Positions 18,053 to 46,204 of a stretch of 48,512 nt of DNA are shown piece by piece. The stretch comes from Opitutus sp. GAS368 (lineage in GTDB: Bacteria; Verrucomicrobiota; Verrucomicrobiia; Opitutales; Opitutaceae). Both the position numbers and the translations under genes were made by a program. The stretch spans positions 1-48,512 of the forward strand of contig CAMDRP010000011.1 of the NCBI GenBank assembly GCA_945906965.1, in the 5' to 3' direction. How positions within the stretch are numbered: the stretch's first letter is position 1; the number at the start of each line of letters is the position of its first letter. The notes beneath the pieces were generated by a model. That model was not told the origin of the DNA, did no database searches, and worked only from the letters and a program-made list of their open reading frames with translations.

Positions 18053-18069
18053 GAAAAAAAAGGCGCAGG

Positions 18070-19131: not shown

Positions 19132-19235
19132 GCGCTTAACAAAGGCGCTTTGCGGGCGGCGTCAAAAGCGGATCGTGTTACAAAGTGCTATTCCAGCGCT
19201 TGCGCCGGGGAAAATTCATGGTGTTTTAGCGGGGC

Positions 19236-19988: not shown

Positions 19989-20020
19989 ACGTCTGGGTGA
20001 GGCGAGGTGACGTTTTTACA

Positions 20021-20048
20021 CAAAAACTTGTCGCAGCCTTTCTATTCG
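20021..20048 (+). promoter_or_regulatory. Shared bipartite motif, copy 2 (putative operator)
   Basis: Same half-sites and ten-base spacer length as at 15560-15587; the spacer bases differ. It ends 74 bases upstream of the FG-GAP gene start and 33 bases after the AraC regulator stop. The position suits an activator site for the carbohydrate cluster. Confidence 0.5.
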
Positions 20049-20121
20049 TTTGTTCGTCTGACCAGTAGGGTCATCGTGCCGTAGTCCCCTTTTGGTCCGA
20101 TTCCCCGCGCCCCAAATCCCC

Positions 20122-21336
20122 ATGACCCTGCATTTGCCCCCTCACGTTCTCTTGGCTGTTGCGGTTGGAGGCTTCGTCGTCTCCGCGGCGTCGGCCGAAA
20201 CGATTTCCTTTAAACGCCAAGCTCTCGACCAGCGTTTTTACGCGGAGAGCATCGCGGCGGCTGATTTTAACCACGATGGTAAACCGGACCTCGTCGCCGG
20301 TCCGTTCTGGTTTGAAGGCCCCGCTTTTACTAAGCGCACCGAAATCGCCGCCCCGCACGCGTTCGATAAAGAAAGTTATTCCAACGCCTTCATCGCCGAT
20401 GCCACCGATATCGACGGCGACGGTTTACCCGACGCGATCCAAGTGGGTTGGCCCGGTCGCCCCGCGCATTGGCTCAAAAATCCCGGCGCCGCCGGCGGCG
20501 ACTGGCCACGGCATTTGATTTATCCGTTCGTCGGCACCGAGTCGCCGCATTTTGTAAAACTCATTGCCGGCCAGCCCGAAGCGTTGATTTTCGCAAGTGG
20601 CAAAAAACTCGGCTACGCCACGCGCAATCCCGCGAACCCCGCGGCGCCGTGGACGTTTCACGCGATTTCTCCCGAGGGCGAATGGCAGCGTTACACGCAC
20701 GGCATCGGCGCGGGCGACATCAACGGCGACGGCCGCGCGGATCTGCTTTCTTACAACGGCTGGTGGGAACACCCCGCCGCGCTCGCCGGTGATCCCGTGT
20801 GGAAATTCCACGCCACCGATTTCGGCCGCGGCGGCGCGCAGATGTATGTTTACGACGTCAACGCCGACGGCCGCGCCGACGTCATCACGAGCATCGAAGC
20901 CCACAAATACGGCGTGAGCTGGTTCGAGCAACTCGCCCCGGCCGCTGGCGCCACCGAGCCCACGTGGCGCGAACACGCCATCCTTAGCCGCGACCCCGCC
21001 GAAAAACTGGGAGGCGTCCAATTCTCCCAACCGCACGCCACCGTCCTCGCCGACATCGACGGCGACGGGCTCCTCGATGTTGTCACCGGCAAACGCTACT
21101 GGGCGCACGGCCCCAAAGGCGACCCCGAGCCCAACGCCGCCGCCGTCATTTATTGGTTCAAACTCACGCGCGACCCGGTCACTAAAGCCGTCACTTACAC
21201 CCCGCACCTCATCGACAACGATTCCGGCGTGGGCACGCAGTTTATCGTCACCGATCTCAATAACGACGGTCGCCCCGATGTCGCCGTCGCCAACAAACGC
21301 GGCGTCTTCGCCTTCATCCAGCAACGCACGCCCTAA
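20122..21336 (+). CDS. Exported FG-GAP/VCBS repeat protein
   Basis: From the ATG at 20122 the product is 404 residues with a signal peptide (MTLHLPPHVLLAVAVGGFVV, cleavage near SAASA). Several calcium-binding beta-propeller repeats follow, each with a D-x-[DN]-x-D-G core: ADFNHDGKPDLV, TDIDGDGLPDAI, GDINGDGRADLL, YDVNADGRADVI, ADIDGDGLLDVV and TDLNNDGRPDVA. It probably folds as an integrin-like propeller in the periplasm or at the cell surface and may bind carbohydrate or partner proteins. It is the first structural gene after the AraC regulator. An upstream TTG start at 20092 is less likely. Confidence 0.87.
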   Translation: MTLHLPPHVLLAVAVGGFVVSAASAETISFKRQALDQRFYAESIAAADFNHDGKPDLVAGPFWFEGPAFTKRTEIAAPHAFDKESYSNAFIADATDIDGDGLPDAIQVGWPGRPAHWLKNPGAAGGDWPRHLIYPFVGTESPHFVKLIAGQPEALIFASGKKLGYATRNPANPAAPWTFHAISPEGEWQRYTHGIGAGDINGDGRADLLSYNGWWEHPAALAGDPVWKFHATDFGRGGAQMYVYDVNADGRADVITSIEAHKYGVSWFEQLAPAAGATEPTWREHAILSRDPAEKLGGVQFSQPHATVLADIDGDGLLDVVTGKRYWAHGPKGDPEPNAAAVIYWFKLTRDPVTKAVTYTPHLIDNDSGVGTQFIVTDLNNDGRPDVAVANKRGVFAFIQQRTP

Positions 21337-21425
21337 GACTTAAACCGCGGCGTAGCCATCAGCTCCCGCCTTTTGACGTTTTTCCTGACGCGCAACATCT
21401 TCTTCTCCCAAACCATTTTTCTCCC

Positions 21426-22697
21426 ATGTCTATCCCCTCCGTCCTCGATCTAAAGATCGTTAAAAAATCCACGCAAAGCCTCGTTGAGGCCGAGCTTTCC
21501 CGCACCGGCGGTTTGTTGCGCCTCGCGCCCGCTTGGGTCCCGCGTTCGTTCCTCCAACCCGGTCTACGCATCAAGCTGCATCCGGATGACACCTACGCCT
21601 ACGGTTTGAATCGCGGCGGCATCGACGAGCGTTGGTTTGCGTCCACCACCGTCACCGCCAACGAAGGCCGCGCCGCCGACGAAGGCTTGAGCTACGTCGT
21701 GATCGGTAATCGCCGCCTCACCCTCGCGCAAGCCGTCGAAGACACCGGCGCCACGCTCGTGGGTAAAGCCATCTGGAAAAAATACGGCAAGTGGCCCGTC
21801 TACTCGAAGTTTTTCGATAACATGGGTCCGATCCCGCACCACATGCATCAAAGTGCCGCGCAGGCGAAGCTCGTCGGCCAAGAAGGCAAACCCGAGTCCT
21901 ACTACTTCCCGCCGCAGCACAACAACGTCGGCAACAATTTCCCATACACCTTCATGGGGCTTGAGCCCGGCACGACCAAGGCGCAGGTGCGCGATTGCAT
22001 CGCCAAATGGAACAAGGGCGACAACGGCATCCTCGATCTCTCTAAAGCCTATCGCCTCAAACCCGGCACCGGCTGGCTCATCGATCCTTGTATCCTGCAC
22101 GCGCCCGGCTCCCTCTGCACTTACGAGCCGCAATGGGGCAGTGACGTTTTCGGCATGTATCAAAACCTCGTCGAGGGCCGCGAAGTACCGTGGTCGCTCC
22201 TCGTGAAAGACATGCCCAAATCCAAACACCAAGACATCGACTTCATCGTCGACCAGCTCGATTGGGACAAGAACGTCGATCCGAACTTCAAGGACAACCA
22301 CTACCTCGAGCCCGTCCCCGTCGCCGACACCCGCAGCGAGGGCTACGTCGATCGCTGGATCGTCTACGGCAAAGTCGACGGCGCGCAATGCTTCACCGCT
22401 AAGGAAATTACCATCGACCCCGGCACCAAGTGCACGGTCAAGGACACCGGCGCTTACGGCCTCATCTGCGTTCAAGGCTCGGGCAAGATCAACGGCGAGC
22501 CGCTTGTTAGCCCGAAGCTCATCCGCTTCCACGAGCTCACCGAAGATGAATATTTCTGCACGGAAGACGGGGCCAAAGCCGGCGTCACGTTTGAAAACAC
22601 CAGCAGCACTGAGCCGCTGGTCTGCCTGCGCTACTTCGGCCCTGAAGTGAATCCCGACGCCCCGAAAATGGGCGCCTACCGCAAAAACAAATTCTAA
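21426..22697 (+). CDS. Phosphomannose-isomerase-like cupin protein
   Basis: The 423-residue protein looks like a divergent type I mannose-6-phosphate isomerase. It has H138-H139-x-H141 and, 16 residues on, E157 in GKPESYYF, resembling the metal-site region and the K-P-E of ManA. The later [14 protein letters not shown] and a C-terminal cupin barrel ([13 protein letters not shown]) also fit. It lacks other ManA sequences and is longer than the minimal isomerases. It is probably cytosolic and isomerises a sugar related to the cluster substrate. The leader before its ATG is C/T-rich without a Shine-Dalgarno. Confidence 0.65.
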
Positions 22698-22770
22698 TCA
22701 AAAACCGTCGTTTCTCCCGCCCGTTTTTTCCTCCCACCCTCCCATTCACCCCCTAAATCACCTCCTCCCC

Positions 22771-23808
22771 ATGGCTGAAAATAACTTCCCTAAACTCCAC
22801 AACGCTGCCTGGCCCGGTCTCGTCGGCAAAGGTAGCCCCGGCGCCGAGCCGTTTATCGATCTCGACACGATGCTCGACATGACCGCCAAGGCCGAAGTCG
22901 GCGGCGTCAAGTTCGACGGTATCGATCTGTTCCTCTACAATCCGCACACCGATATCGATATCTCCGAGGACGGTATCAAAGCCCTCGCCGCCAAGATCAA
23001 GTCCAAGGGCCTCGTCGTCGGTTCCGTCGTCGCCCCCGTGTGGTTCGATGCCGCCGCCGGCGGTGACGCCGCGGCGCGCGCCAACTGGGTCAACCACGTC
23101 CGCAAAGCCGTCCGCATCGCCAAAAAACTCCGCGATCTCGGCGTGCGCCCCTACGGCGTCGTCCGCATCGACAGCGCCACCAGCGTCAAAACCTGGGACA
23201 CCGATCCCAAGGGCGTCACCAAGCTCATCGCCCAATCCTTCCGCGAAGCCGGTAAGATCGCCAAAGACGCCGGTGAACGCCTCGCCGCCGAAGGCGAAAT
23301 CTGCTGGGGCGGCATGCACAGCTGGAAGAACATGGTGAACCTCCTCGAGGCCGTGAACATGCCCAAAGTCGTCGGCTTCCAAGCCGACATGTCGCACACA
23401 CTGCTTTACACGCTCGGCGAAAACGCCGAAGCCCACCGCATCGTCCCCAAGAATTACCATTGGGAACCTGCCGAGTTTCACAAAGCCATGGTCAAACTCA
23501 CCGCCGCACTCCGCCCGTGGACGATCGATTTCCACGTCGCGCAAAACGACGGCACCGTCTTCGGCTCTGGCTCGCACGAAAAGACCGGCCGCCACTGCCT
23601 CGCCACCGACCCGAAGGGCAAACTCAACATCCCGCGCGACGGCGGCTACTGGCTCCGCGACGGCAAGGGCAAGGTCACCAAAAAAATCAAACACCTCTGC
23701 TGGGACGGTTGCATGTTCCCCAACGAGGTCATGATGAAACAGCAGACCTGGAACGACATTCTCGCCGCCATGATCGAGGTTCGTAAAAACCACGGTTGGG
23801 TCGGCTGA
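22771..23808 (+). CDS. Sugar phosphate isomerase/epimerase (TIM barrel)
   Basis: The 345-residue protein belongs to the AP-endonuclease-2 TIM-barrel family of sugar isomerases and epimerases. Features include [18 protein letters not shown] at the first strands, [33 protein letters not shown] (with E and H as candidate metal ligands), [17 protein letters not shown] and [23 protein letters not shown]. No signal peptide is seen, so it acts in the cytosol. It lies between the cupin and a Gfo/Idh dehydrogenase. Substrate unknown; a keto-sugar or its epimer is likely from context. Confidence 0.82.
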
Positions 23809-23854
23809 GTTTCGCCCGGTTTTATTTTTTAACCTTCAAACGCTCTCCAATCCC

Positions 23855-25000
23855 ATGGCCAAAAAACAACTTCGCGTCGGTCTCATCGGCTACAGCTTCA
23901 TGGGCCGCGCTCACAGCAACGCCTTCCACCAAGTTAACCACTTCTTCCCGTCCACCTACGAAGTCATCCCGCAGGTCGTCTGCGGGCGCGACGAAGCCAA
24001 GGTGAAAGAATTCGCCGCCAAATGGGGCTACAAAGCAATCGAGACGGATTGGAAAAAACTCATCGCGCGCGACGACATTGACGTCGTCGACATCGCCACG
24101 CCCAACAACCTCCACGCCGAGCAAGTCATCGCCGCCGCCAAAGCCGGCAAGATGATCCTGTGTGAAAAACCCCTCGGCCGTAATGGCCCAGAAGCCGAGA
24201 AAATGCTCAAGGCGGTCGAGAAAGCCGGCGTCGCCAACATGGTGTGGTATAACTACCGGCGTTGCCCCGCCGTCGTCCTCGCCAAGCAGTTCATCGATGC
24301 CGGCAAACTCGGCCGCGTGTTCCACTACCGTGCCAACTTCCTGCAAGATTGGACGATCAATCCCGAGTTACCCCAGGGTGGCACCGGCCTCTGGCGCCTG
24401 GACGTCAACGTCGCCGGTTCCGGCGTCACGGGCGATCTGCTCGCGCACTGCATCGACACCGCGCTTTGGCTAAACGGCGGCATCAAAGACGTCAGCGCCA
24501 TGACCGAGACCTTCGTCAAAGAGCGCAAACACAGCCTCACCGGCAAAGTTCAAAAAGTCGGCATCGACGACGCGTGTCTTTTCCACTGCCACTTCAACAA
24601 CGGCTCGCTCGGCCTCTTCGAATCCACGCGTTACGCCCGCGGCCACAAAGCCCTCTACACGTTCGAAGTGAACGGCGAAAATATGTCGCTCAAGTGGGAC
24701 TTGCACGACCTGCATCGTCTCCAAGTTTTCGATTACACCGACAACGGCCCTGAGCGCGGCTGGAAGAGCATCCACGTCTCCGACGGCGATCATCCTTATT
24801 GCGGCAACTGGTGGGTCCCCGGCCTCCAACTCGGCTACGAACACAGCTTCGTGCACGCGATGGTGGAGTTCATCCGCGGCCTTGAAAGCGGCAAGGGCTG
24901 CACGCCCAACTTCAAGGACGGTCTCGCCACCGATTACGTCACCGACGCCGTGCTCAAGTCCGCCGCCACCGGCCGTTGGGCCAAGGTGAAACAAGTCTGA
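23855..25000 (+). CDS. Cytosolic Gfo/Idh/MocA family oxidoreductase
   Basis: The 381-residue protein has an N-terminal Rossmann fold ([18 protein letters not shown]), [21 protein letters not shown], the family motif CEKPLGRN, and [16 protein letters not shown]. The C-terminal alpha/beta domain has [20 protein letters not shown], with D and H positioned like the proton-relay residues of the family. No signal peptide is present, unlike the exported paralogue at 13992-15491. It probably uses NAD(P) to oxidise or reduce a sugar or keto-sugar. A strong hairpin terminator follows it. Confidence 0.9.
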
Positions 25001-25013
25001 TGAATCGCAGGGT

Positions 25014-25048
25014 GGGGCGGGTTCACTTGGGCCCGCCCCCTCTTTTTT
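25014..25048 (+). terminator. Rho-independent terminator
   Basis: GGGGCGGG (25014-25021) pairs with CCCGCCCC (25032-25039) over a ten-base loop and is followed by a run of six T (25043-25048). It would end transcripts from the upstream four genes or act as a partial attenuator before the next isomerase gene. Confidence 0.75.
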
Positions 25049-25111
25049 AGCCTCACAAATTCCCCCGGCGCCCCGGTTTTTGCGTCCCATTTTTTCACCC
25101 GTTTTTCTCCC

Positions 25112-25972
25112 ATGCCTAAACTCGGTTTCAACCTCCTCGCCTGGACCGCGTCGATCTCCGACGATTTTTTTCCACACATCGAGCGCCTTAAAAAAATCGG
25201 CTACGACGGCATCGAGATTTGCAACGGCGCCCAAGACCCCGCCGCCTATAAGCGGCTCAAAAAACTGCTCGGCGACCTCAACCTCGGCGTCACCTGCGTC
25301 ACCATCGTCGGTGCGGATGCGAATCCCGCCAGCCCCGATGCCGCCATCCGCGCCAAGGGCCTCGACGCCATCAAGTGGAACATCGACCGCACCGTGGATT
25401 GCGGCGCGAAATTACTCTGCGGCCCGTTTCATTCGGCCTTCGCGACCTTCACGCGCGCCGACATCAACCCCGACGAATACAAACGCAGCGCCGAGATTCT
25501 CCGCGCCGCTGGCGACTACGCCCAACAAGCCGGTGTCATCCTCTGCCCCGAAGCGCTCAACCGTTTTGAGTGTTACCTCTGCAACACCATGGCGCAGCTC
25601 CGCATGCTCATCGAGCTCACCGATCACCCCAACGTGCGCGCCATGTACGACACGCACCACGCCAATACCGAGGAAAAAACGTTCGCCGGCGCCATCCGCA
25701 CCATCGCCCCCGTCCTCGCGCACGTGCACCTCAGCGAGAACGACCGCGGCACGCCCGGCTCCGGCCACATCAACTTCCGCGAAAACCTCACCACGCTGCG
25801 CGAAGTCGGCTACGACGGCTGGATGACAATCGAGGCCTTTAGCCGCTCCGACCCCGCCTTCGCCAACGCGATCAATGTCTGGCGCGAGTTTTCTCCCGCT
25901 TGGGACATCGCTGAATCCGGCTACACGTTCCTCCGCCGCGAAATCGCCGCCGCCGGTTACCCCATCGCCTAA
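25112..25972 (+). CDS. Hydroxypyruvate-isomerase-like TIM-barrel protein
   Basis: The 286-residue TIM-barrel protein belongs to the sugar phosphate isomerase/epimerase family. It starts MPKLGFNLLAWTASISDDF and shows KIGYDGIEIC, LGVTCVTIVGADANPA, CGPFHSAF, ILCPEALNRFECYLCNT (E as metal ligand candidate), MYDTHHANTEEK, LAHVHLSENDRGTPGSGHINF and DGWMTIEAFSRSDPAF. The E-D-H-E order fits a single-metal isomerase such as a D-psicose/tagatose 3-epimerase or hydroxypyruvate isomerase. Its ATG sits after the terminator, and the next gene starts 15 bases after its stop. Confidence 0.85.
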   Translation: MPKLGFNLLAWTASISDDFFPHIERLKKIGYDGIEICNGAQDPAAYKRLKKLLGDLNLGVTCVTIVGADANPASPDAAIRAKGLDAIKWNIDRTVDCGAKLLCGPFHSAFATFTRADINPDEYKRSAEILRAAGDYAQQAGVILCPEALNRFECYLCNTMAQLRMLIELTDHPNVRAMYDTHHANTEEKTFAGAIRTIAPVLAHVHLSENDRGTPGSGHINFRENLTTLREVGYDGWMTIEAFSRSDPAFANAINVWREFSPAWDIAESGYTFLRREIAAAGYPIA

Positions 25973-25987
25973 ATTTTTTACTCTTTT

Positions 25988-28900
25988 ATGAATTTCCGTC
26001 GCTTACTTCTTCCCCTCGTTCTTCTCGCCGCGTCCTTCACCTTCGCGACGGCCGCCGCGCCCACGACGCTGGTCCTCGAGCCTGCGGCCGGCATGGCCGC
26101 GAAGGGTAAACACGTCGTGCTGCTCTCCGGCGACGAAGAATATCGCAGCGAAGAAGCGCTCCCGATGCTGGCGAAAATCCTCAGCCAACGCCACGGCTTC
26201 AAAACCACCGTACTCTTCGCCCTCGACGCCGACGGCACGATCAATCCCAACAACGGTAAATCCCTCTCCGGCTCCGAAGCCCTCGACACCGCGGACATCA
26301 TTATCATGGCGCTGCGTTTCCGCGCTTGGTCCGATGACGCGATGAAGCGTTTCGACGCCGCCCACCGCCGCGGTGTTCCCATCATCGCGCTGCGCACCTC
26401 GACCCATGCGTTTAATTTTCCCGCCGGCAGTCCGTGGTCTGCCTACTCCTGGAATAACAAAATCTCTCCCGCCACCACCGGCGGCTTCGGCAAACAAGTC
26501 CTCGGCGAAACGTGGGTGACGCATTGGGGTAAACATAAAGCCGAAGCCGCCCGCGGCCTCATCGAACCTAGCGCCACTGCCGACCCGCTGCTACGCGGCG
26601 TCACCGAACTTTTTGGCAACTCCGATGTCTACGAAGCCGCGCCCCCCGCCGACGCGAAAATCCTCGTCCGCGGTCTTGTCCTTAAAGGCATGAGCCCCAG
26701 CGATGCGCCTGCGGATTACGTCAAAAAAACCGCCGCCAAAGTTGAGCAACCCGTCAACGCTCCCGCGATGCCCGTGGTCTGGACGCGTCTGCACAAAACC
26801 GAATCTGGCGCCACGGCAAAAATTTTTACCACCACCCTCGGGGCCGCCACCGATTTCGAAAACGAGTCGCTCCGCCGCCTCATCGTCAACGCCACCTATT
26901 GGGCCGCCGGCCTCGAGGTCCCGGCTAAAGCCGACGTCACCCCGTTCGATAGCTACGCCCCACGCATGTACGGCTTCGATGGCTACCGCACCGGTATCAC
27001 GCCGGCCGATCACGCGCTCGGCAAAGTCCTTCCCATCGGCGGTAACGTCCCGCCTAAGCCCCCGAAGCCGCTCGCCGCGCCCAAGCCGTCCGCGCCGCCG
27101 CCGTCAGCCGCTGCCGCCGCCAAGCCCAATCCTGCTTCGGCTCCGGCCGTTGCGCCGGAAACCAAGACCAAGACCGAGCCGGCCGCCGCCACGGCCCTCG
27201 CCGCGAAGGACGCCCCCAAAAAACCTGCTGCCCCCCAGCCGGCGAAACCGCTCGAAACCCCCCACGCGTTTAAGGTCGAGCCGATCGCCGCAAACACGCG
27301 GCGTTCGCAAGTCGTCGCACCCCCGAGCCGGGGTGAGCGCATCGTGCTCATCGGCAACGGACTCGCGGAGCGCGACGTTTACTACCACCGCATCGAGACG
27401 GAGCTCGCCCTGCGTTACCCCGAGCACGAGCTGTTCTTTCGCAACCTGGGCCATGTCGGTGATACGCCCGGCTTTCGGCCCCATCCCTCGCGCGCCTCAC
27501 AGTGGGCGTTTCCGGGCGCCGAGAAATTCCATCCCGAACTCAACGTCCACAAAGGGCAGGGCTTCTTCCCCACGCCCGACCAGTGGCTCACGCACCTCAA
27601 GGCCGACACCCTCATCGCGTTCTTCGGCTACAACGAATCCTTCGACGGTCCGACCAAAGTCGCCAACTTCGAGGCCGAACTGAATGCCTGGGTGGAGCAC
27701 ACGCTGAGCAAAGCCTACAACGGCCAAGCCGCTCCCCGCGTCGTGCTCGTCTCGCCCGTCGCCTACGAGAACCAGTCCGCCCTGCGTGACCTGCCCGACG
27801 GCACGAAGGAGAACGCCAACCTCCAGCTCTACGCCGCCGCCATCGCGTCCGTTGCGAAGAAACACGGCCTCACGTTCATCGACGTCTTCAACCCGATGCA
27901 GGCGCTCTACTCCCTCGCCCGCCAACCCCTCACAACCAAGGGCTTCATCCCCAATGACGAAGGCTACCGCCACCTCGCCCGGCTCCTCGCCAACGGCGCC
28001 TTTGGCGCCCAAGCCATCGTCTCGAAAGCCGACCCCGCCCTCGTTCATGGCGCGGTAAAACAGAAAGACTACTTTTGGAATAACGACTATAACTTGGTTA
28101 ACGGCGTCCACGCCTACGGTCGGCGCTACGGCCCCTACGGCCCGCAAAATTATCCCGACGAGGTTAAGAAGACCCGCGAGATGGCTGCACTCCGCGACGC
28201 GGTGATCCATGCGGTCGCCAGCGGCCGCAAGCAGGATCTCAGCGTCGATGACAGCCAGACGCATGTCCTGCCGCCCGTGCCCACCAACTACCAGCCCAGC
28301 GTCAAAAACGGCACCCCCGGTTATCTCCCGGGCGAGGAAGGCGTCGCGGCCCTCAAAGTTCCCGAAGGCTACCAAGTCCAGCTCTTCGCCAGCGAAAAAG
28401 AGTTCCCCAATCTCGCCAACCCCATGCAGCTCTCCTTCGACAACAAGGGCCGCCTCTGGGTCGCTGTGATGCCCGCCTACCCGGCCTATCGCCCCGGCGA
28501 CGCCCTGCCCAACGACAAGCTTCTGATCTACGAAGACACCGACGGTGACGGCAAAGCCGATAAGGAAACCGTATTTGCAGATAACCTCTATCTGCCCATC
28601 GGCTTCGAGTTCGCGCCCGAAGGCGTCTATCTTTCCCAAGAGCCGAACCTCGTTTTGCTCCGCGACACGGACGGCGACGACAAAGCCGACCGCACCGAGA
28701 TTATCTTGGGCGGCTTCGATACCCATGATACGCACCACGCCATCAGTGCCTACACCGCCGATCCCAGCGGCGCGTTCATGCTTTGCGAAGGCGTTTTTCT
28801 GCACAGCAACGTCGAAACCCCTTACGGCCCGGTGCGCTGCGTCGATGGCGGATTCTTCCGCTACAGCCCGCAACGCGGCATGCTGGAGCGCACCATCCAG

Positions 28901-30376: not shown

Positions 30377-30431
30377 TCGCCTCCCGCCCCCGCAATCTCT
30401 CCCCGTCAAGTCCGTCTCCCTGCCCGCACCT

Positions 30432-31187
30432 ATGAAATCCCTCCGCCTCGCCGCCCTCGCGCTCCTCGCGCTCGCCCCGTCAACGTTCATCCACGCCGCC
30501 GAACCCGGCTTCAAATCCATCTTCGACGGCCAGACCCTCGCCGGCTGGGAGGGCACCCCAGCCGTCTGGTCTGTCCGCGACGGCGCGCTCACCGGCCAAA
30601 CCACCGCCGAGAAGGGCATCAAGTCCAATACCTTCCTCGTCTACACCGGCGCCCAGCCCGCCAACTTCGAACTCCGCCTCGCCTTCCGCCTCACCGCGCA
30701 AAACGAAAAGAACCAGGCCAACTCCGGCGTCCAATACCGCAGCAAGCTCATGGACCCCGCCACCTTCGTTGTCGGCGGCTACCAGGCCGACATCGACTCG
30801 CCCTTCAAATACACCGGCATGCTCTACGAAGAGAAAGGCCGCGGCATCCTCATGACCGCCGGCGAAAAAATCCGCATCGGCGCCACGACGCTGGTCGACG
30901 ACGCCAAGAAGCCCGGCGCCAAGAAAAAGCAGACCGCCGTCGAGAAACTCCCCGGCGCCACTCCCACGGGCGACATCGCTGCCGCCTACAAACTCGGCGA
31001 ATGGAACGAACTCATCATCACCGCCAACGGCGACCAACTCCGCCACACCGTCAACGGCGTCGTCACCGCCGAGGTCACCGAGACGGATGCTGCCATCGCC
31101 AAGTCCGGCGTCATCGCCCTGCAGCTCCACACCGGCCCGCCGATGACCGTCCAGTTTAAAAACATCCGCCTCAAGGTCCTGCCATAA
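30432..31187 (+). CDS. DUF1080 (3-keto-disaccharide hydrolase-like) exported protein
   Basis: The 251-residue protein has a signal peptide (MKSLRLAALALLALAPSTFI) and one DUF1080 domain: GFKSIFDGQTLAGWEGTPAVWSVRDGALTG, NFELRLAFRLTAQNEKNQANSGVQYRS, and LGEWNELIITANGDQLRHTVNGVVTAEVTE. The lectin-like family contains enzymes shown to cleave 3-keto-disaccharides, and Pfam renamed it accordingly, though many members are uncharacterised. It sits between two heme proteins in one orientation. A catalytic rather than merely binding function is likely but not shown here. Confidence 0.88.
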   Translation: MKSLRLAALALLALAPSTFIHAAEPGFKSIFDGQTLAGWEGTPAVWSVRDGALTGQTTAEKGIKSNTFLVYTGAQPANFELRLAFRLTAQNEKNQANSGVQYRSKLMDPATFVVGGYQADIDSPFKYTGMLYEEKGRGILMTAGEKIRIGATTLVDDAKKPGAKKKQTAVEKLPGATPTGDIAAAYKLGEWNELIITANGDQLRHTVNGVVTAEVTETDAAIAKSGVIALQLHTGPPMTVQFKNIRLKVLP

Positions 31188-31206
31188 TCTGGCCAAGTTC
31201 CGTCGC

Positions 31207-31237
31207 GCCTCGCCGATCCGGCGAGGCCTTTCCGTTT
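31207..31237 (+). terminator. Rho-independent terminator
   Basis: A nine-base stem GCCTCGCCG / CGGCGAGGC (31207-31215 and 31219-31227) closes a three-base loop and is followed by CTTTCCGTTT. The T-tract is interrupted, so termination may be partial. Confidence 0.6.
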
Positions 31238-31291
31238 CGCCAGCCCCTCCGCCTCCGAAAAATCAGCGCAGCTTAGCGTTCTCTCCCTCCC

Positions 31292-33973
31292 ATGATTTCC
31301 TCTCCCTGTTTCCGGCTTCCCCTTTTTGCGCTGCTCGCGCTCACCCCTGCCTTCGCTCAGCCCGCGGCGCCCGCGGCCGCCATCTCGCCCGCTGCGCTCC
31401 AAGTCGCGCCCGGCTTTAAGGTCGAGTTGATCTACACCGTTCCGAAAGAAGATCAGGGTTCGTGGGTCGCGCTCACGGTTGACCCCAAGGGCCGCATCTA
31501 TGCTGGCGACCAATACGGCGCCGTTTACCGCCTCACCGTGCCGCCGGTCGGCAGCACCGAGGGCACCAAGGTCGAGAAGCTCGCGCTCACCTTGCCCGAG
31601 GCCGTGCTCGGCTCCGACTCCGAACCCCTCCCGCCCCCGCCGAAAAAAGGCAAAGGCGCCAATGGCCTCCCGCCCTCGATCGGTGCGCACGGCCTACTCT
31701 ACGCTTTCGACAGCCTCTACGTCATGGTCGACGAGGTCCCCAATCGCCGCGGCATCTGGCGCATGCGCGACACCAACGGCGACGACCAATTCGACGAAAT
31801 TAAGTTTCTCCGCGAGACCAAGAGCCTCGGCGGTGAGCACGGCCCGCACTCCCTTGTCCTCTCGCCCGATGGCAAGTCCATCTACTTCGCCAACGGCAAT
31901 CACACCGATCTTCCTACCAACCTGAATAAATCCCGCCCCGTCCGCTGGGATGAAGATCACCTCCTCCCGCGCATGTGGGACGCCCGCGGCCACGCCAAAG
32001 GCAAATACGCCCCCGGTGGCTACGTCGGCCGCATGGACCCTGAGGGCAAAACCGTCGAGCTCTTCGCCCTCGGTTTCCGTAACCAGTTCGACATCGCCTT
32101 CGACCAAAACAGCGAACTCTTCACCTATGACTCCGATATGGAATGGGACCAAGGTTCGCCCTGGTACATTCCTACGCGCATCAACCACATCGTCGACGCC
32201 GGTGATTATGGTTGGCGTAGCGGCGCTGGTCGCTGGCCCGCCTACTACGCCGACAGCCTTCCGGCCGTGATCGATATCGGCCCCGGCTCGCCCACAGGCA
32301 CCGTCTTCGGCACCGGCGCTAAATTCCCCGCCAAATACCAACGCGCCCTCTTTGCCGCCGACTGGACCTACGGCACGCTCTACGCCCTCCACCTCAAGGC
32401 CGACGGCGCTTCGTTCACCGCCGAGAAAGAAGAATTCGTCGCCGGCAAACCGCTGCCACTCACCGACGTCGTGATCCACCCCGGCGACGGCTCGATGTAT
32501 TTCGCCGTCGGTGGCCGCCGCACCCAATCCGCGCTCTATCGCGTCACTTATACCGGCACAGAAAACACCGCGTCCGTCGCTGCGCTTCCGCCCACGCCCG
32601 AGGCCCAACTGCGCCGCCGCCTCGAAGCCCTCCACGCCGAAGGCACCGGCCCCGAAGCCATCGCGATCGCGTGGCCACACCTCGCCAACCCCGACCGCTT
32701 CATCCGTTTCGCCGCTCGCGCCGCTATTGAGCGTCAACTTCCCGCCAACTGGACGGACCGCGCGCTCAAAGAAAAAAATCCGCAGGCCGCTATTGAAGCC
32801 CTCATCGCGCTCGCGCGCGTCGGTGAAAAACATTTTCAACCGCAGATCATCGACGCCCTCACCCGGCTCGATTACACGCGTCAACCCGCCGAGCTTCGCC
32901 TCCCGTTGCTCCGCGCCTGGCAACTCACGTTCACCCGCATGGGTAAGCCCGACGCCGCCACCTGCGCCCGCGTCGCCGCGTTGCTCGATCCGTTGTTCCC
33001 GGCGACGGACTCGCTCGTGAATCGCGAACTCGTTTCGCTTCTTATCTTCCTTGATTCTTCCACCGTCGTCGCCAAGACCGTCCCACTTCTCAGCATCGCT
33101 GAAAATCCCGGTACGGCGCCGGAAGAAATTGCCAGCCGCGCGCTCCTCGCCCGCAACGACGGCTACGGTCGCACCGTGCAAAGCGTCACCGACGCCCGCT
33201 CCGACCGCCAACAAATCGCTTACGCCTACGCTCTGCGTCACGCCACCGCTGGCTGGACGCCCGAACTTCGCACCCAGTTTTTCGCTTGGTTTCCACGCAC
33301 CTCGGAATGGAAGGGCGGCGCCAGCTTCACCGGCTTCCTGCGCAACATCCGCAACGAATCCCTCGCGAAAATCTCCGAGCCCCTCGAACGCCAGAAATTC
33401 GACGACCTCTCCAAAGTTCCGGTGCACTCCATCGTCGCCGGCGCCGTCAGCCCCAAAGGCCCAGGCCAAACTTACACCGTGGAAAGCGCCGCTGCGCTGT
33501 TCCCCGCCAAACTTACCGACCGCGACTTCGCACAAGGTAAAGCCATGTTCGCCGCCACCGCGTGCATTTTCTGTCACCGCTTCAACGGTGAGGGCGCTGG
33601 CATCGGTCCCGACATCTCCGGCGCGGGTAACCGTTACAGCGTAAAAGACCTACTCGAAAACATCATCGAGCCTTCCAAGGTCATCAGCGATCAATACGGC
33701 ACCGAACAACTCACCCTGGCCGACGGCGAAGTCATTATCGGCCGCGTTGTCGCCGAAGACGGCAACCGCTATTCCGTCATGACGAACCCCTTCGCGCCGG
33801 ACGAACTCTTGCGTCCCGAGATTTCCAAGGTCCGCTCCCGCAAACCCTACGCTATGTCGATGATGCCCGCCGGCCTCGCTAACGCGCTCAACCCCGACGA
33901 ACTCAAAGACCTCGTTGCCTACCTTCTGTCCGGGGGTAATCCCGCCGACCCGATGTTCGCGAAAGCAAAGTAA
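31292..33973 (+). CDS. Exported propeller/HEAT/cytochrome c heme-binding protein
   Basis: The 893-residue protein starts with a signal peptide. A PVC-type beta-propeller follows (about 35-430; for example WVALTVDPKGRIYAGDQYGAVYRL and DAGDYGWRSGAGRWPAYYAD). Next come a helical, HEAT-like region (about 435-720) and a C-terminal cytochrome c domain with C758-x2-C761-H762 and several candidate axial methionines (SMMPAGLANAL). Such proteins are abundant in Planctomycetota and Verrucomicrobiota and are thought to act in periplasmic electron transfer linked to sugar oxidation; none of this is proven for this one. It is the last plus-strand gene of the cluster. Confidence 0.88.
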   Translation: MISSPCFRLPLFALLALTPAFAQPAAPAAAISPAALQVAPGFKVELIYTVPKEDQGSWVALTVDPKGRIYAGDQYGAVYRLTVPPVGSTEGTKVEKLALTLPEAVLGSDSEPLPPPPKKGKGANGLPPSIGAHGLLYAFDSLYVMVDEVPNRRGIWRMRDTNGDDQFDEIKFLRETKSLGGEHGPHSLVLSPDGKSIYFANGNHTDLPTNLNKSRPVRWDEDHLLPRMWDARGHAKGKYAPGGYVGRMDPEGKTVELFALGFRNQFDIAFDQNSELFTYDSDMEWDQGSPWYIPTRINHIVDAGDYGWRSGAGRWPAYYADSLPAVIDIGPGSPTGTVFGTGAKFPAKYQRALFAADWTYGTLYALHLKADGASFTAEKEEFVAGKPLPLTDVVIHPGDGSMYFAVGGRRTQSALYRVTYTGTENTASVAALPPTPEAQLRRRLEALHAEGTGPEAIAIAWPHLANPDRFIRFAARAAIERQLPANWTDRALKEKNPQAAIEALIALARVGEKHFQPQIIDALTRLDYTRQPAELRLPLLRAWQLTFTRMGKPDAATCARVAALLDPLFPATDSLVNRELVSLLIFLDSSTVVAKTVPLLSIAENPGTAPEEIASRALLARNDGYGRTVQSVTDARSDRQQIAYAYALRHATAGWTPELRTQFFAWFPRTSEWKGGASFTGFLRNIRNESLAKISEPLERQKFDDLSKVPVHSIVAGAVSPKGPGQTYTVESAAALFPAKLTDRDFAQGKAMFAATACIFCHRFNGEGAGIGPDISGAGNRYSVKDLLENIIEPSKVISDQYGTEQLTLADGEVIIGRVVAEDGNRYSVMTNPFAPDELLRPEISKVRSRKPYAMSMMPAGLANALNPDELKDLVAYLLSGGNPADPMFAKAK

Positions 33974-34054
33974 GTTGTTTTCGGCCTGAGTTTGGTCGGG
34001 AGGTTTCGCATTTTTATCCGATTTCAGCTCCCACGGTTTGCAGCGTTTTTATAC

Positions 34055-34079
34055 CCATCGCCCACCTTCGCGGCGATGG
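34055..34079. repeat. Inverted repeat in intergenic region
   Basis: CCATCGCC (34055-34062) and GGCGATGG (34072-34079) form an eight-base stem over a nine-base loop. No T-run follows on either strand, so a simple terminator is unlikely. It could be a dispersed intergenic repeat. Confidence 0.4.
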
Positions 34080-34166
34080 AGCCACTTTATCGTATTTGTC
34101 CTAAGCACCTAGGGGTGAGATCGTGGGTGGGGCGCTGTCTAGATGGCGCAACCTACGCGACCCCCA

Positions 34167-34268
34167 TCAAATTTTCTCCACGCTGAAAGCCTGCAAGCCC
34201 ATATGTGATTCAACCTGTTGAAAAACCAGTCGGCGTTCGCTAATAGGGAGATTGAGAAAAGCATTCAT
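34167..34268 (-). pseudogene. Remnant of AbiEii-type toxin gene
   Basis: Directly after the antitoxin gene, with the ATGA overlap typical of such pairs, an ATG opens a 33-codon frame: MNAFLNLPISERRLVFQQ, then VESHMGLQAFSVEKI and a TGA. This resembles the N-terminus of AbiEii/AbiGii nucleotidyltransferase toxins, which commonly run through an R-x-x-F helix into VEKDFWV. The match stops exactly where DFWV is expected. The next 190 bases in all frames show no toxin sequence, so the rest has been deleted rather than frameshifted. Assignment rests on remembered family pattern. Confidence 0.6.
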
Positions 34269-34888
34269 GGCTTAAGTGCGGACTCAGTGAAGGGACGCAG
34301 AAGATCGGCAATCCAAGCGGGCGCATAACGAAGATCTCGGCGAATAGCTGCGCGATCCTCATCGGTAATTCTTCTTCGAAGAATGGTACATATTCTATCG
34401 TCCACCTGATCCTGTCCAAGATAACGAAGCGCTTGGATCAGTGTGCCGCTTTTTCTCCCAGCCGTCGCCACGTTCCGCGGCACAGTCTGCTTGAGGATAA
34501 TTTCTTGCTTACCGATTTTCACCTTCCGGGAGGGGCCATCGGTCAAAAAAACAATCCGGGATGGGACTTGCTCGGAAAGGCCCAACACATTGGCGGCATA
34601 GGCCCCGTAGGGTTGAAGGCGAATGGCATCGCGCCCCATCAAAGCGCGGGCGACGGCGTCGGCAGAAGGCGCAACGGTACCGAGTACGGGGTGCTGCACG
34701 GGATAATCATAAAGACCCCGAGCAAGCTTGCGAATGACACCCGCTTGCTTGAAGCGGCGTAGGGCAGACTCAATGGCGGCTGCACTCCCGATTCCTTGAA
34801 AATGCTTTGGGGTAAATACCCAACCCCTACCGTGGCCATAAATTCGGCTACGAACTTGCATATCAATGGATTGAGATTTAATTTTCAC
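34265..34888 (-). CDS. AbiEi/DUF6088-type antitoxin
   Basis: The 207-residue product resembles DUF6088/AbiEi-like antitoxins of type IV toxin-antitoxin systems. It has an N-terminal winged-helix region (RIYGHGRGWVFTPKHFQGIGSAAAIESALRRFKQAGVIRKLARGLYDYP) and a C-terminal antitoxin domain containing ALMGRDAIRLQPYGAYAANVLGLSEQVPSRIVFLTDG and ALRYLGQDQVDDRI. It starts at a GTG (34886-34888); the ATG at 34859-34861 is an alternative. Antitoxins of this type bind and repress their own promoter; a palindrome overlaps the predicted -35 box. Only a stub of the toxin gene remains downstream. Confidence 0.8.
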   Translation of the reverse strand: MKIKSQSIDMQVRSRIYGHGRGWVFTPKHFQGIGSAAAIESALRRFKQAGVIRKLARGLYDYPVQHPVLGTVAPSADAVARALMGRDAIRLQPYGAYAANVLGLSEQVPSRIVFLTDGPSRKVKIGKQEIILKQTVPRNVATAGRKSGTLIQALRYLGQDQVDDRICTILRRRITDEDRAAIRRDLRYAPAWIADLLRPFTESALKP

Positions 34889-34904
34889 TTAGTTTCTGAC
34901 GGGA

Positions 34905-34932
34905 AAAATAGGGTCTTTTTTTGTCATGACAA
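34905..34932 (-). promoter_or_regulatory. Promoter and palindromic operator of antitoxin gene
   Basis: On the minus strand TTGTCA (34927-34932) and TATTTT (34905-34910) are 16 bases apart. They form a plausible sigma70 promoter with a start about ten bases before the GTG. A perfect 12-base palindrome TTGTCATGACAA (34921-34932) covers the -35 box, an ideal place for autorepression. Confidence 0.5.
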
Positions 34933-35100
34933 GGATAGTTATAAGCATCCCAGAGATTTTTAACGGTCCTGAAAAACGCGGTTTTCAACCACGTAGCTAC
35001 CCATGGCGTCTTTCACGTGAGCGCATGGCTACTCGAGTTGGGGGTCTAAAATAGGCCTTTGCTTGATAATTTGCCCCGAGTTACTTCGACTTCACCTCGA

Positions 35101-36816
35101 ATGGCGAATCACCCGACCACCCCTGGCGCCCGCGAGCACACATTTGACGCTATCGTCATCGGCTCCGGTATCAGCGGCGGTTGGGCGGCGAAGGAACTCT
35201 GTGAAAGCGGCCTGCGCACACTCGTCTTGGAGCGCGGCCGCGACGTAAAGCACCGCGACGATTATCCCACGGCGTTAAAAAACCCGTGGGATCTACCGCA
35301 CCGCGGCAAGTTGCCCCGCGACATCGTCACCGCCAATCCCATCGCGAAAAAATGCTACGCCTTCGACGAGACGACGGCGCATTTTTTCGTCAAAGACGCC
35401 GAACACCCCTACGAACAGGAAAAACCCTACGACTGGATCCGCGGCTACCAAGTCGGCGGCAAGTCCCTGATCTGGGCCCGACAAACGCAGCGCTGGAGCC
35501 GTTTCGATTTTGAAGGCCCCGCGCGCGACGGCTTCGGCGAGTGGCCTATCACCTACGACGAACTCGCTCCATGGTATTCACACGTCGAACGCTTCGCCGG
35601 CATCAGCGGCAATTACGACGGCCTCGAAACGTTGCCCGATGGCGAATTTCTCCCCGCGTGGGAAATGAACGACGTCGAAAAACACGCGCAGGCCAAAATC
35701 ATGGGCGCGTTTGCCGAGCGGCACGTGATCCAAGGCCGCTGTGCGCATCTCACGGCGCCAAAACCCCAACACCTCGCGCAAGGCCGCGGTAAATGTCAGG
35801 CGCGCAACCTGTGCTACCGTGGTTGCCCGTTTGGCGCGTATTTTAGTTCGAACTCCGCCACACTCCCCGCCGCGGCGGCGACCGGCAATCTCACGCTACG
35901 TCCGCACGCGGTGGTTGAATCCATTCTCTACGATGACGCCACCGGCCGAGCCAGTGGCGTGCGCGTGATCGACGCGGTGACCAAACAGAGTACGGAATTT
36001 TTTGCGCGGATCGTTTTCGTCAACGCCGCCTGCTTAAACACGAATCTCATTTTGCTTAATTCCCGCTCCGCGCGTTTCCCCGCCGGACTCGGCAACGATC
36101 ACGGACTGCTCGGACATCACATCGCGTTTCACAATTATCGCGGCAGCCTCTCGGGTTCCATCGAAGGCTTTGAAGATTCTTATTATTCCGGCCGGCGTCC
36201 GACTCAGCTCATGATGCCGAATTTCCGCAACGTGCGGAAACAAGAAACCGATTTTCAGCGCGGTTACATGGTGTTTTTCGGCGCCGGTCGCGCCGGCTGG
36301 CAGAGCGGCGCCAGCACCCCTGGCGTCGGCGTCGCCTTCAAAGACCGCATCACGCGCCCCGGCCCGTGGGGTATTTCCATGATGATGCAGGGCGAAACGG
36401 TGCCGCGGAAAGAAAACCACGTCCGCCTCTCCGCCGCGCAAAAAGACGCCTGGGGTATCCCGCAACTCGTCACTTCGATCGGCTACCACGACAATGACGA
36501 ACGGCTCCTCAAAGATTTTTTCGCTCGTGGCCAAGAGATGCTTGAAGCCGTCGGCGCGAAAAAAATCGTGACGCGTGATTCCAAACAAAACCCCGGTCTC
36601 GACATCCACGAGATGGGTGGCGTGCGCATGGGTCGCGATCCTAAGGCCTCGCTACTCAATCGCTGGAATCAGCTCCACACCTGCGCAAATGTTTTCGTCA
36701 CGGACGGCGCCTGCATGACCTCGACCGGCACGCAAAACCCCTCGCTCACGTTTATGGCGCTCGCCGCCCGCGCCGCGCAGTACGCCGTGGCTGAATTAAA
36801 GAAAGGCAATCTATGA
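35101..36816 (+). CDS. GMC-family FAD-dependent sugar/alcohol dehydrogenase
   Basis: The 571-residue flavoprotein has an N-terminal FAD-binding motif (DAIVIGSGISGGWAAKEL, then LVLERG) and the GMC C-terminal domain with catalytic candidates H503 (DIHEMGG) and N546 (TQNPSLT). Cysteines C232, C238 and C242 (C-x5-C-x3-C) recall the iron-sulfur-binding region of bacterial FAD-dependent sugar dehydrogenases. Together with the next gene it matches the catalytic/small-subunit pair of gluconate 2-dehydrogenase and glucoside 3-dehydrogenase. I chose ATG 35101; a TTG at 35059 gives a longer form. It lacks its own signal and is probably co-exported with its partner. Confidence 0.9.
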   Translation: MANHPTTPGAREHTFDAIVIGSGISGGWAAKELCESGLRTLVLERGRDVKHRDDYPTALKNPWDLPHRGKLPRDIVTANPIAKKCYAFDETTAHFFVKDAEHPYEQEKPYDWIRGYQVGGKSLIWARQTQRWSRFDFEGPARDGFGEWPITYDELAPWYSHVERFAGISGNYDGLETLPDGEFLPAWEMNDVEKHAQAKIMGAFAERHVIQGRCAHLTAPKPQHLAQGRGKCQARNLCYRGCPFGAYFSSNSATLPAAAATGNLTLRPHAVVESILYDDATGRASGVRVIDAVTKQSTEFFARIVFVNAACLNTNLILLNSRSARFPAGLGNDHGLLGHHIAFHNYRGSLSGSIEGFEDSYYSGRRPTQLMMPNFRNVRKQETDFQRGYMVFFGAGRAGWQSGASTPGVGVAFKDRITRPGPWGISMMMQGETVPRKENHVRLSAAQKDAWGIPQLVTSIGYHDNDERLLKDFFARGQEMLEAVGAKKIVTRDSKQNPGLDIHEMGGVRMGRDPKASLLNRWNQLHTCANVFVTDGACMTSTGTQNPSLTFMALAARAAQYAVAELKKGNL

Positions 36817-37349
36817 ACCGCCGGGAAGCCCTGCGCCACACCGCGCTCGTTGCCGGGGCTGCCGCGCTTTGGGCCAGTTTGCCCTCGCGCACGTGGGCTG
36901 CGCTCGCCGCGCCGGCCGGCTGGGATATCGCGGACGAAGCCCTGCTCACGCTCATCGGTGATACGATCATTCCTGCGACGACTACCTCGCCTGGTGCGGG
37001 TTCGGTCGCGATCGGACGTTTTATTCTCACACAAACCAACGATTGTTTTCCGCCTGAAGCTCGGGCGACGTTGCGTCGCGGCCTGAGCGATATCACCGCC
37101 TCGAGCCAGCAGCGTTTCGGAAAAAACTTTTCTGTGCTCGACCGCGCACAACGCGAGCGCGTGTTGACCGAGTACGAAGCCCAGTCCGTCGCCGCGCCGC
37201 ATCCGTTTCGTCACCTGAAAGAACTCACGGTACTCGGCTATTTCACCGCGGAAGCCGGCGCGACACAGGCGTTGCGCTACGATCCGATTCCCGGCGCGTT
37301 TCGCGGTTCGGTGAAACTGGCGCCCGGCGATCGCAGTTGGGCGCATTGA
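36813..37349 (+). CDS. Gluconate 2-dehydrogenase subunit 3-like protein, Tat-exported
   Basis: The 178-residue protein has a twin-arginine-type signal (MNRREALRHTALVAGAAALW, motif N-R-R-E-A-L). The small helical subunit 3 domain follows (DEALLTLIGDTIIPATTTSPGAGSV, RFILTQTNDCFPPEA, FRHLKELTVLGYFTAEAGATQALRYDPIPGAF). It overlaps the GMC gene by four bases (ATGA), so the two subunits are coupled. It probably carries the GMC partner across the membrane as a hitchhiker. The gene ends three bases from the convergent mutarotase-like gene. Confidence 0.88.
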   Translation: MNRREALRHTALVAGAAALWASLPSRTWAALAAPAGWDIADEALLTLIGDTIIPATTTSPGAGSVAIGRFILTQTNDCFPPEARATLRRGLSDITASSQQRFGKNFSVLDRAQRERVLTEYEAQSVAAPHPFRHLKELTVLGYFTAEAGATQALRYDPIPGAFRGSVKLAPGDRSWAH

Positions 37350-38507: not shown

Positions 38508-38597
38508 GGGTAAAAGCACACGCACGGGTTCAACTTGAGGCAAGCGTGAGCCTCTCACCGCTTGCTAGCAGCCCAAACCTTGCCAACGTCCAATGCG

Positions 38598-40374: not shown

Positions 40375-40386
40375 GATTTTACCCCA

Positions 40387-46134: not shown

Positions 46135-46137
46135 TCT

Positions 46138-46204
46138 AATTAGAGTTATATTGGACTCAGTTTGGAGTGCAATCATCTATTCCAATTTTAATAAATTAGA
46201 GTTA
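46138..46204 (-). repeat. 11-base direct repeat at fic promoter
   Basis: TAACTCTAATT (minus strand) occurs at 46138-46148 and at 46194-46204, 56 bases start to start. The downstream copy touches the fic start, and a TATAAC box overlaps it, with TTGCAC 16 bases upstream. The repeat could be the binding site of the Fic C-terminal winged helix. Confidence 0.5.

Follow-up and report, generated by a model that had tools for sequence, protein, structure and literature searches.

The window analysed here is a stretch of 48,512 nucleotides from Opitutus sp. GAS368 (Opitutaceae, Verrucomicrobiota), and is contig C11 of a draft genome of 3.26 Mb (G000; 190 contigs, 96.8% complete). It carries a gene cluster at positions 19236–33973, which we tentatively read as encoding the oxidation-assisted cleavage of a small glycoside and in which the gene for a 1462-residue fusion protein looks like a recent heme-for-copper chimera. 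From 20122 to 33973, all genes lie on the plus strand, separated by gaps of 15–111 bp. The operon opens with an FG-GAP repeat protein (20122–21336; PF01839/PF13517), which has a signal-like N-terminus and is not part of the conserved core. The core follows: a 423-residue cupin with the fold of phosphomannose isomerase (PMI; 21426–22697), the xylose-isomerase-like TIM barrel TIM345 (22771–23808; PF01261, 50.3 bits) and Gfo381, a Gfo/Idh dehydrogenase resembling levoglucosan dehydrogenase (23855–25000). Next are TIM286, a TIM barrel similar to ketose 3-epimerases (25112–25972; PF01261, 145.4 bits), the fusion (25988–30376), and a DUF1080 protein of the 3-keto-disaccharide hydrolase family with a signal-like N-terminus (30432–31187; PF06439, 130.7 bits against a cut-off of 26.8). 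The last gene encodes an 893-residue propeller-like protein with a C-terminal heme domain (31292–33973), which passes TIGR02603 (100.5 bits, cut-off 68.15) and reaches only 75 bits with TIGR02604, below the cut-off of 122.2.

Beyond the operon lie a GMC oxidoreductase (35059–36816, plus strand; PF05199 at 65.6 bits and PF00732 at 42.6, each above its cut-off) and, overlapping it by 4 bp, a Gluconate_2-dh3-type subunit 3 with an N-terminal RR motif (36813–37349, plus strand; PF13618, 107.5 bits). As relatives of the GMC protein align from about residue 14, its true start is perhaps 35101. The operon has a strong negative GC skew of about −0.2, which fades to about zero at 34.0–35.0 kb, and this local loss of skew, together with a minus-strand DUF6088 gene (34265–34888; PF19570, 148.6 bits; weak AbiEi_4 match below cut-off), separates the operon from the GMC pair. 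We read 20122–37349 as two loci. The DUF6088 gene lies in a lower-GC region at their junction, and the near-identical genome G364 has a DUF6088 gene too. An earlier, first-pass annotation of this DNA had proposed the whole interval as a candidate glycoside 3-oxidation and cleavage system. Each gene that it named was found within 20122–37349 by Pfam and NCBIfam scans. Its labels of exported and twin-arginine-exported proteins agree with the signal-like N-termini and with the RR motif of subunit 3, although these features were read by eye and not by a signal-peptide program.

Comparison with other genomes shows that the cupin, TIM345 and Gfo381 form a conserved cluster. In a family sample of 100 genomes, the cupin was matched in 32 and, at 78% identity or more, in 21. 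Twenty surroundings were fetched and 17 of these, some cut by contig ends, had a cupin of at least 79% identity; one, from genome G062, is nearly identical to the window. Around these 17 cupins were found TIM345 (16), Gfo381 (15), the AraC-family regulator described below (10), DUF1080 (10), the ThuA domain of the fusion (9), the 893-residue heme type (5, at 52% identity or more), FG-GAP (4), TIM286 (3) and a 400-residue protein that lies beyond the GMC pair in the window (2). TIM345 was present in 27 of 288 genomes sampled across the phylum, and the 20 of these places that were fetched held the cupin and Gfo381 in 12 each, TIM286 in five, the 400-residue protein in four and DUF1080 in one. 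A further scan with one genome per species confirmed at least 580 TIM345 relatives, of which the best 80 loci by score were analysed, so that near relatives weigh more. Their titles name Verrucomicrobia, Planctomycetota, Bacteroidetes and a few others, with isolates of Runella and Cognataquiflexum among the carriers listed. Here, Gfo381 was found in 49 (48 at 50% identity or more), the cupin in 35, ThuA in 17, DUF1080, TIM286 and the 893-residue heme type in 15 each, FG-GAP in three and the 400-residue protein in two; GMC and subunit 3 were found in none.

Within these 80, DUF1080 accompanies 14 of the 28 loci that have both Gfo381 (at least 50% identity) and the cupin (at least 45%), compared to one of the 52 others. 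The full core with DUF1080 also occurs in the Bacteroidota loci L208, L212, L217 and L218, and in the two from Runella (L208, L212) DUF1080, TIM286, the cupin, TIM345 and Gfo381 all lie on one strand. The recurrence of the core gene order in many genomes argues that the arrangement is not due to chance. The cluster of PMI-fold cupin, TIM barrel and levoglucosan-dehydrogenase-like Gfo/Idh is thus real, and is often accompanied in Verrucomicrobiota, Planctomycetota and Bacteroidota by DUF1080, the ThuA fusion and the second TIM barrel. The reading of the interval as a single system is partly supported: the core recurs, and GMC and subunit 3 are not linked to it. The host genome as a whole has twelve above-cut-off DUF1080 matches.

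The fusion protein joins a ThuA-like domain, a GDSL domain, a DUF7133 propeller, HEAT repeats and a cytochrome c with its CxxCH motif at residue 1345 (Pfam; TIGR02604, 211 bits against a cut-off of 122.2). The ThuA-like domain, which the earlier annotation lacked, was detected with hhalign (97.4%). It had no Pfam match up to an E-value of 5 and no plasmid match, and in relatives the Pfam ThuA model gave 27.4 bits (below the cut-off of 33.4) and 33.8 bits (just above it). The corresponding locus of G364 (L141) is 89% identical in DNA to the window over 18001–27094 and again over 31386–33172; between 27094 and 31386, just a few pieces align, at 70–74%. In G364 the counterpart of the fusion is an open frame of 1750 residues (stop to stop) that lacks CxxCH, ends in an azurin-like domain (PF00127) and is 59–78% identical over its full length to the frames of nine relatives. 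Its ThuA domain and the window's are 91% identical, compared to 39% identity in the GDSL-propeller part. A heme paralogue lies elsewhere in five sister genomes (G018, G026, G054, G067, G091), and its GDSL and propeller-cytochrome parts are 84–87% identical in protein to the window fusion. In DNA, the heme paralogues are 79.7–81.5% identical to the window from 27232–27260 to 30373–30388, and their ThuA domains (seen in four of the five) are 44–45% identical to the window's.

This identity pattern indicates that the window gene combines a ThuA part from the azurin-type gene of this locus with the remainder of a heme paralogue, and so looks like the product of recent recombination between the two. 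The left breakpoint zone (27094–27260), where DNA identity switches from L141 to the heme paralogues, falls within a Pro/Ala-rich linker after the ThuA domain; the right zone (30373–30391) lies at the stop codon of the fusion, where that identity ends. The azurin-type fusion sits at the cupin locus in G018, G054 and G091; the cupin contigs of G067 and G026 stop short of the fusion or inside it, and both genomes have an azurin-type frame on a different contig. Searches of the draft genomes found no heme-type fusion elsewhere in G364 and no second copy of the fusion in the host. Misassembly is unlikely because G062 carries the same fusion at 95% identity over residues 1–1462. Both copies end in cytochrome c. 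The gene set with its giant cytochrome fusions had been proposed as possibly new; the fusion family is in fact common, and what sets the window copy apart is its apparent heme-for-copper chimerism. The neighbouring DUF1080 gene is 74–86% identical to those of several sister-species loci and only 66% to that of G364, which points to an exchange of the cassette in two or more steps, or in each of the lineages.

Azurin and cytochrome c have little in common beyond being small one-electron carriers, and both are found at the end of this scaffold. The azurin type occurs in 11 loci (L054, L055, L057, L059, L064, L141, L142, L145, L146, L158 and L168), in one of which (L146) it is split over two frames. 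All 11 keep a Cys-His-Met motif and an upstream His, which we take to be the blue-copper ligands, and CxxCH is absent from all. Azurin-type fusions of full length passed PF00127 in three of three scanned, and fell below the cut-off of the azurin equivalog TIGR02695 in two of two. Nine further azurin-bearing frames, from several families, were scanned; seven match DUF7133 at an E-value of 0.001 or less, three of them above cut-off. One of the seven is in the host genome itself (contig C95, L253), about 3 kb from a DUF1080 gene.

A tree was built from 35 DUF7133 domains with a readable tail (22 cytochrome, 12 azurin, one neither), in which two domains with cut tails were dropped and identical domains were counted once. 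The tail label changes three times on this tree, compared to 11.2 times in shuffles; by reading of the tree, two of the changes are between azurin and cytochrome and one is a loss. Frequent exchange of carriers is not supported by these counts, and the small number of changes implies that carriers mostly follow descent.

Since one ThuA-GDSL-propeller-HEAT scaffold can bear either carrier, the propeller seems to be the source of electrons, and the scaffold hence a periplasmic dehydrogenase. That the terminal carrier, cytochrome c or azurin, is kept intact is circumstantial evidence of a redox function in the periplasm. The propeller could instead be a glycosidase that forms no keto intermediate, with the carrier serving some other purpose. 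This would agree with the report of a purified TIGR02604-HEAT-cytochrome protein (Lac161_ORF7), from a cosmid assigned to Chthoniobacter, which cleaves lactose with a Km of 1.8 mM, frees glucose and is described as a beta-galactosidase (PMC5342196). However, its authors saw no similarity to known glycoside hydrolases, and without electron transfer it is hard to see why the scaffold should keep its CxxCH cytochrome or its blue-copper site intact. We consider a glycosidase very unlikely.

Of the proteins predicted to act in the cytoplasm, the cupin matches no Pfam or NCBIfam family. Its structural model (mean pLDDT 84) was matched by VIA to phosphomannose isomerase with a Z score of 27.9 (root-mean-square deviation 2.6, 292 residues, 15% identity), compared to only 15.4 for the second-best fold, so that the earlier description of a PMI-like cupin is borne out by the predicted fold. 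TIM345 (model pLDDT 91) is predicted to be a xylose-isomerase-like barrel. In the Foldseek ranking, AtHYD, a 2-hydroxy-3-keto-glucal hydratase, stands fifth and YcjR, a 3-keto-glucoside 4-epimerase, twelfth, amid numerous other sugar isomerases. Residues E174, E176, D206, H209, H255 and D312 are invariant in 32 TIM345 sequences, which suggests a putative metal site. TIM345 was considered as a possible homologue of AtHYD or its Lgd counterpart; neither PDB nor plasmids gave a sequence match, and AtHYD was absent from the 50 entries listed by VIA. The best PDB matches of TIM286 are psicose/tagatose 3-epimerases, the motifs of which are kept. Gfo381 resembles levoglucosan dehydrogenase over its full length (PDB 6a3f, E-value 1.5e-77) and has the CEKP and GDxxxH motifs; its next best match in the host genome is only 32% identical. 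Elsewhere in the window (13992–15491, minus strand), a 498-residue Gfo/Idh protein matches the BT_2158 glycoside 3-dehydrogenase model over the model's N-terminal half (130.5 bits against a cut-off of 750).

These folds would also fit a core that converts sugars or polyols without glycosidic cleavage through C3 oxidation, for example by ketose epimerisation and aldose-ketose isomerisation with a Gfo/Idh step or by a YcjQRS-like glycoside epimerisation, in which case DUF1080 and the fusion would be mere frequent neighbours. The 3-epimerase motifs of TIM286, the isomerase fold of the cupin and the fold of TIM345, which is general to sugar isomerases, are in line with such a pathway, as is the finding that most TIM345 loci lack DUF1080. 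On the other hand, the strong tie of DUF1080 to full-core loci described above, which includes Bacteroidota, speaks against it, and we regard a conversion of this kind as unlikely.

The GMC/subunit-3 pair had been proposed as the periplasmic C3 dehydrogenase (LacA/LacC-like) of the system, with the cytochromes taking its electrons and DUF1080 cleaving its product. Linkage does not bear this out. In addition to its absence from the best 80 species loci, the window-type GMC (74–100% identity) was found in nine of the 100 family genomes, where subunit 3 adjoins it in eight of the eight others; in the seven sister genomes with 10–20 kb of sequence, none of the cupin, TIM345, Gfo381 and DUF1080 lies near it. 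The GMC pair was therefore rejected as a linked part of the core. The 17 family cupin loci hold one GMC, of another type (31% identity). The arrangement of operon plus GMC recurs in G364, and the contigs of G062 end at that point. In three orthologous GMC loci, 17 neighbour proteins scanned with Pfam were mostly products of unrelated genes, such as TGT, OTC, iPGM and ferrochelatase; among the others, G018 has a PF01261 TIM barrel some 6 kb away from its GMC, and G026 has a TonB plug domain immediately upstream. The small LacB-like cytochrome expected beside the GMC was not seen either, as the only CxxCH frame within 3 kb in the window is the 893-residue protein and five orthologous loci have none within 3 kb of the pair. 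With four GMC genes in the host genome, each paired with a subunit-3 gene, the pair in the window is not the sole candidate. The pair on contig C30 (L082), 50% identical to the window's, lies near a nucleoside-permease-type transporter, which is also found in DUF1080 operons of Xanthomonas and Hymenobacter plasmids, and may be a better LacA candidate than the window's own.

Phylogeny is more favourable to a role for the pair. A maximum likelihood tree of 47 GMC proteins, which gave long-branch warnings and uses GMCs of DUF1080 operons as stand-ins for LacA, places the window protein and all eight GMCs from DUF1080-containing plasmid stretches together in one clade of 38 members (support 100/99). 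These eight belong to a set of 13 plasmid stretches with such GMCs, which, like four low-identity controls, was picked by hand and not at random from 40 listed of 277 matching records. Of the 13, subunit 3 is annotated in 11, DUF1080 in eight and Gfo/Idh in eight, compared to one, none and none in the four controls. No control GMC falls in the clade: three branch elsewhere, and the fourth clusters with the host genome's C3 paralogue. Further, Catenovulum has a PVC-type heme protein (PVC, Planctomycetes-Verrucomicrobia-Chlamydiae), DUF1080, GMC and subunit 3 in one row. However, within the clade the window GMC belongs to a subclade of nine (100/100) that has no DUF1080-linked member and includes a Haliscomenobacter GMC, itself beside a Gfo/Idh gene. 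Placement in the tree thus speaks mostly for the GMC, and linkage against it.

Co-occurrence with the core likewise holds by genome and not by locus. A GMC of at least 48% identity is present in 16 of the 21 family genomes that carry the cupin (at least 78%) and in 10 of the 79 that do not; by genus the counts are 9/12 and 6/37 (p = 3e-4, with no correction for phylogeny). As this could stem from descent or lifestyle, it is taken as weak support for a shared role. Together with the clade, it allows that the GMC acts at a distance. GMC and subunit 3 are best seen as a separate oxidoreductase pair from the same broad group as the GMCs of DUF1080 operons, which may feed the same pathway. That this pair is itself the C3 dehydrogenase of the system has, in our estimate, a low probability.

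We instead prefer, at somewhat less than even confidence, that the cluster at 19236–33973 encodes a pathway that cleaves a small glycoside with the help of oxidation. The ThuA-GDSL-DUF7133 fusion, acting outside the cytoplasm, would oxidise the sugar on its propeller, probably at C3, and hand the electrons on to its built-in one-electron carrier; the resulting 3-keto-glycoside would then be cleaved by DUF1080. Inside, Gfo381 together with TIM345, TIM286 and the PMI-fold cupin would turn the keto-sugar into a hexose that the cell can use, by rehydration, isomerisation or reduction. The carrier would be replaceable: the gene usually has azurin, and in the window recombination with a paralogue would have brought in cytochrome c. 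What the analysis shows directly is the gene content, the recurring linkage of the core, the predicted folds of the cupin and TIM345, the chimera and the presence of two carrier types; the reactions and their sequence, the C3 position and the substrate are inferred, as are the compartments, which are read from N-termini. A 2024 Nature paper reportedly describes 3-keto glycan breakdown in Bacteroides. The known partners of DUF1080 act on 3-keto-glycosides, and published accounts tie DUF1080 proteins to C3 oxidation (PMC9007349) and to xanthan breakdown in a planctomycete (PMC5673643), while 3-keto-glycoside operons pair one Gfo/Idh with two TIM barrels (PMC7676230, PMC10628242, PMC10066097). 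A dehydrogenase with DUF1080 and a cytosolic set like that of such operons makes C3 oxidation followed by cleavage the most economical scheme.

Several points weigh against this pathway. DUF1080 is present in just one of the 20 phylum loci and in 15 of the 80 best-scoring species loci, which are biased to near relatives. A cofactor site in the propeller is hypothetical, and every gene stays below the cut-off of the PqqE model; the best match has 68 bits against 381, so that dependence of the fusion on pyrroloquinoline quinone is neither shown nor excluded. Searches of PDB and plasmids found no relative of TIM345 by sequence, and many isomerases share its fold match; TIM286 most resembles ketose 3-epimerases, and Gfo381 scores 336 bits with the NCBIfam levoglucosan dehydrogenase model, far under the cut-off of 650. 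Finally, the lactose activity of the Chthoniobacter protein was termed hydrolysis by its authors (PMC5342196). The 3-keto-glycoside reading of the first-pass annotation fits the gene families, and is weakened by the unlinked GMC and by the score of Gfo381.

A bolder proposal, which we hold as possible and rather doubtful, is that the DUF7133 propeller is an unrecognised sugar dehydrogenase that oxidises glycosides, helps to cleave them and discharges through a swappable built-in blue-copper or heme carrier, all in one exported polypeptide. If true, the window would be a natural heme-for-copper swap beside a near-identical copper-type genome, and the cleavage of lactose by Lac161_ORF7 would be oxidation-coupled. 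Two near-identical genomes that differ in carrier would allow a direct test of the redox reading. For many of the large TIGR02604/DUF7133 proteins of PVC bacteria no function is established, and the chimera offers a clue to what they do. The cupin-TIM345-Gfo core in turn provides a cross-phylum marker of a sugar pathway that often travels with DUF1080.

The remaining genes of the window surround these loci. Upstream of the operon is an AraC-family regulator with a PAS domain (19236–19988, plus strand; PF12833, PF08448), which adjoins the cupin in 10 of the 17 family loci. Past subunit 3 is the 400-residue protein (37353–38558, minus strand), which has no match in Pfam, NCBIfam or PDB and relatives of which adjoin the core in other genomes. 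Both were omitted from the first-pass annotation. Further on (39358–42739, plus strand) is a row of Zn-alcohol dehydrogenase, D-2-hydroxyacid dehydrogenase, cyclase-like and SDR genes, the cyclase-like one matching an arylformamidase model below cut-off; in genome G055 (L079), counterparts of the first three lie some 3 kb away from a different GMC/subunit-3 pair. A 472-residue Fic/DOC-family protein (PF02661) is encoded at 44755–46176 on the minus strand.

Lgd-type operons and PVC heme fusions are known kinds, and so is the combination of C3 oxidation and DUF1080. Neither the cupin-TIM345-Gfo core nor an azurin replacing cytochrome c on a DUF7133 scaffold was found in the open-access literature searched, which is no proof of their absence from print. 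The Caulobacter system of lactose 3-oxidation (LacABC with DUF1080; PMC9007349) shares with the window a GMC, an adjoining subunit 3 and DUF1080, and the window GMC groups with those of DUF1080 operons. It differs in that the GMC pair of the window is unlinked to the core elsewhere and has no small cytochrome gene alongside. The PVC-type heme-binding CxxCH proteins (TIGR02604), including Lac161_ORF7 (PMC5342196), have the same TIGR02604 region, HEAT repeats and C-terminal cytochrome c, whereas the window fusion adds ThuA and GDSL domains, appears to be a chimera, and has relatives that bear azurin in place of cytochrome.

Class I phosphomannose isomerase shares its fold with the cupin, and a profile of 24 cupins aligns the invariant K128 with PMI K86 and H141 with PMI H99 (PMI residue numbers as in PDB titles). 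Unlike that family, the cupin is only about 15% identical, lacks a Pfam or NCBIfam match to it and has a His at the position aligned two before H99. Lastly, the Lgd levoglucosan operon and the GlycDH/AtOGE/AtHYD operon (PMC7676230, PMC10066097, PMC10628242) likewise have a Gfo/Idh beside two sugar-isomerase-like TIM barrels, which in the window belong to PF01261, and Gfo381 resembles LgdA while scoring below the cut-off of the LgdA model. Kinship of the window's TIM barrels with LgdB1/LgdB2 or AtOGE/AtHYD is conjectural, AtHYD being at rank 5 for the fold of TIM345, which has no PDB sequence match. The core differs from both operons in lacking a second Gfo/Idh and in adding a PMI-fold cupin.

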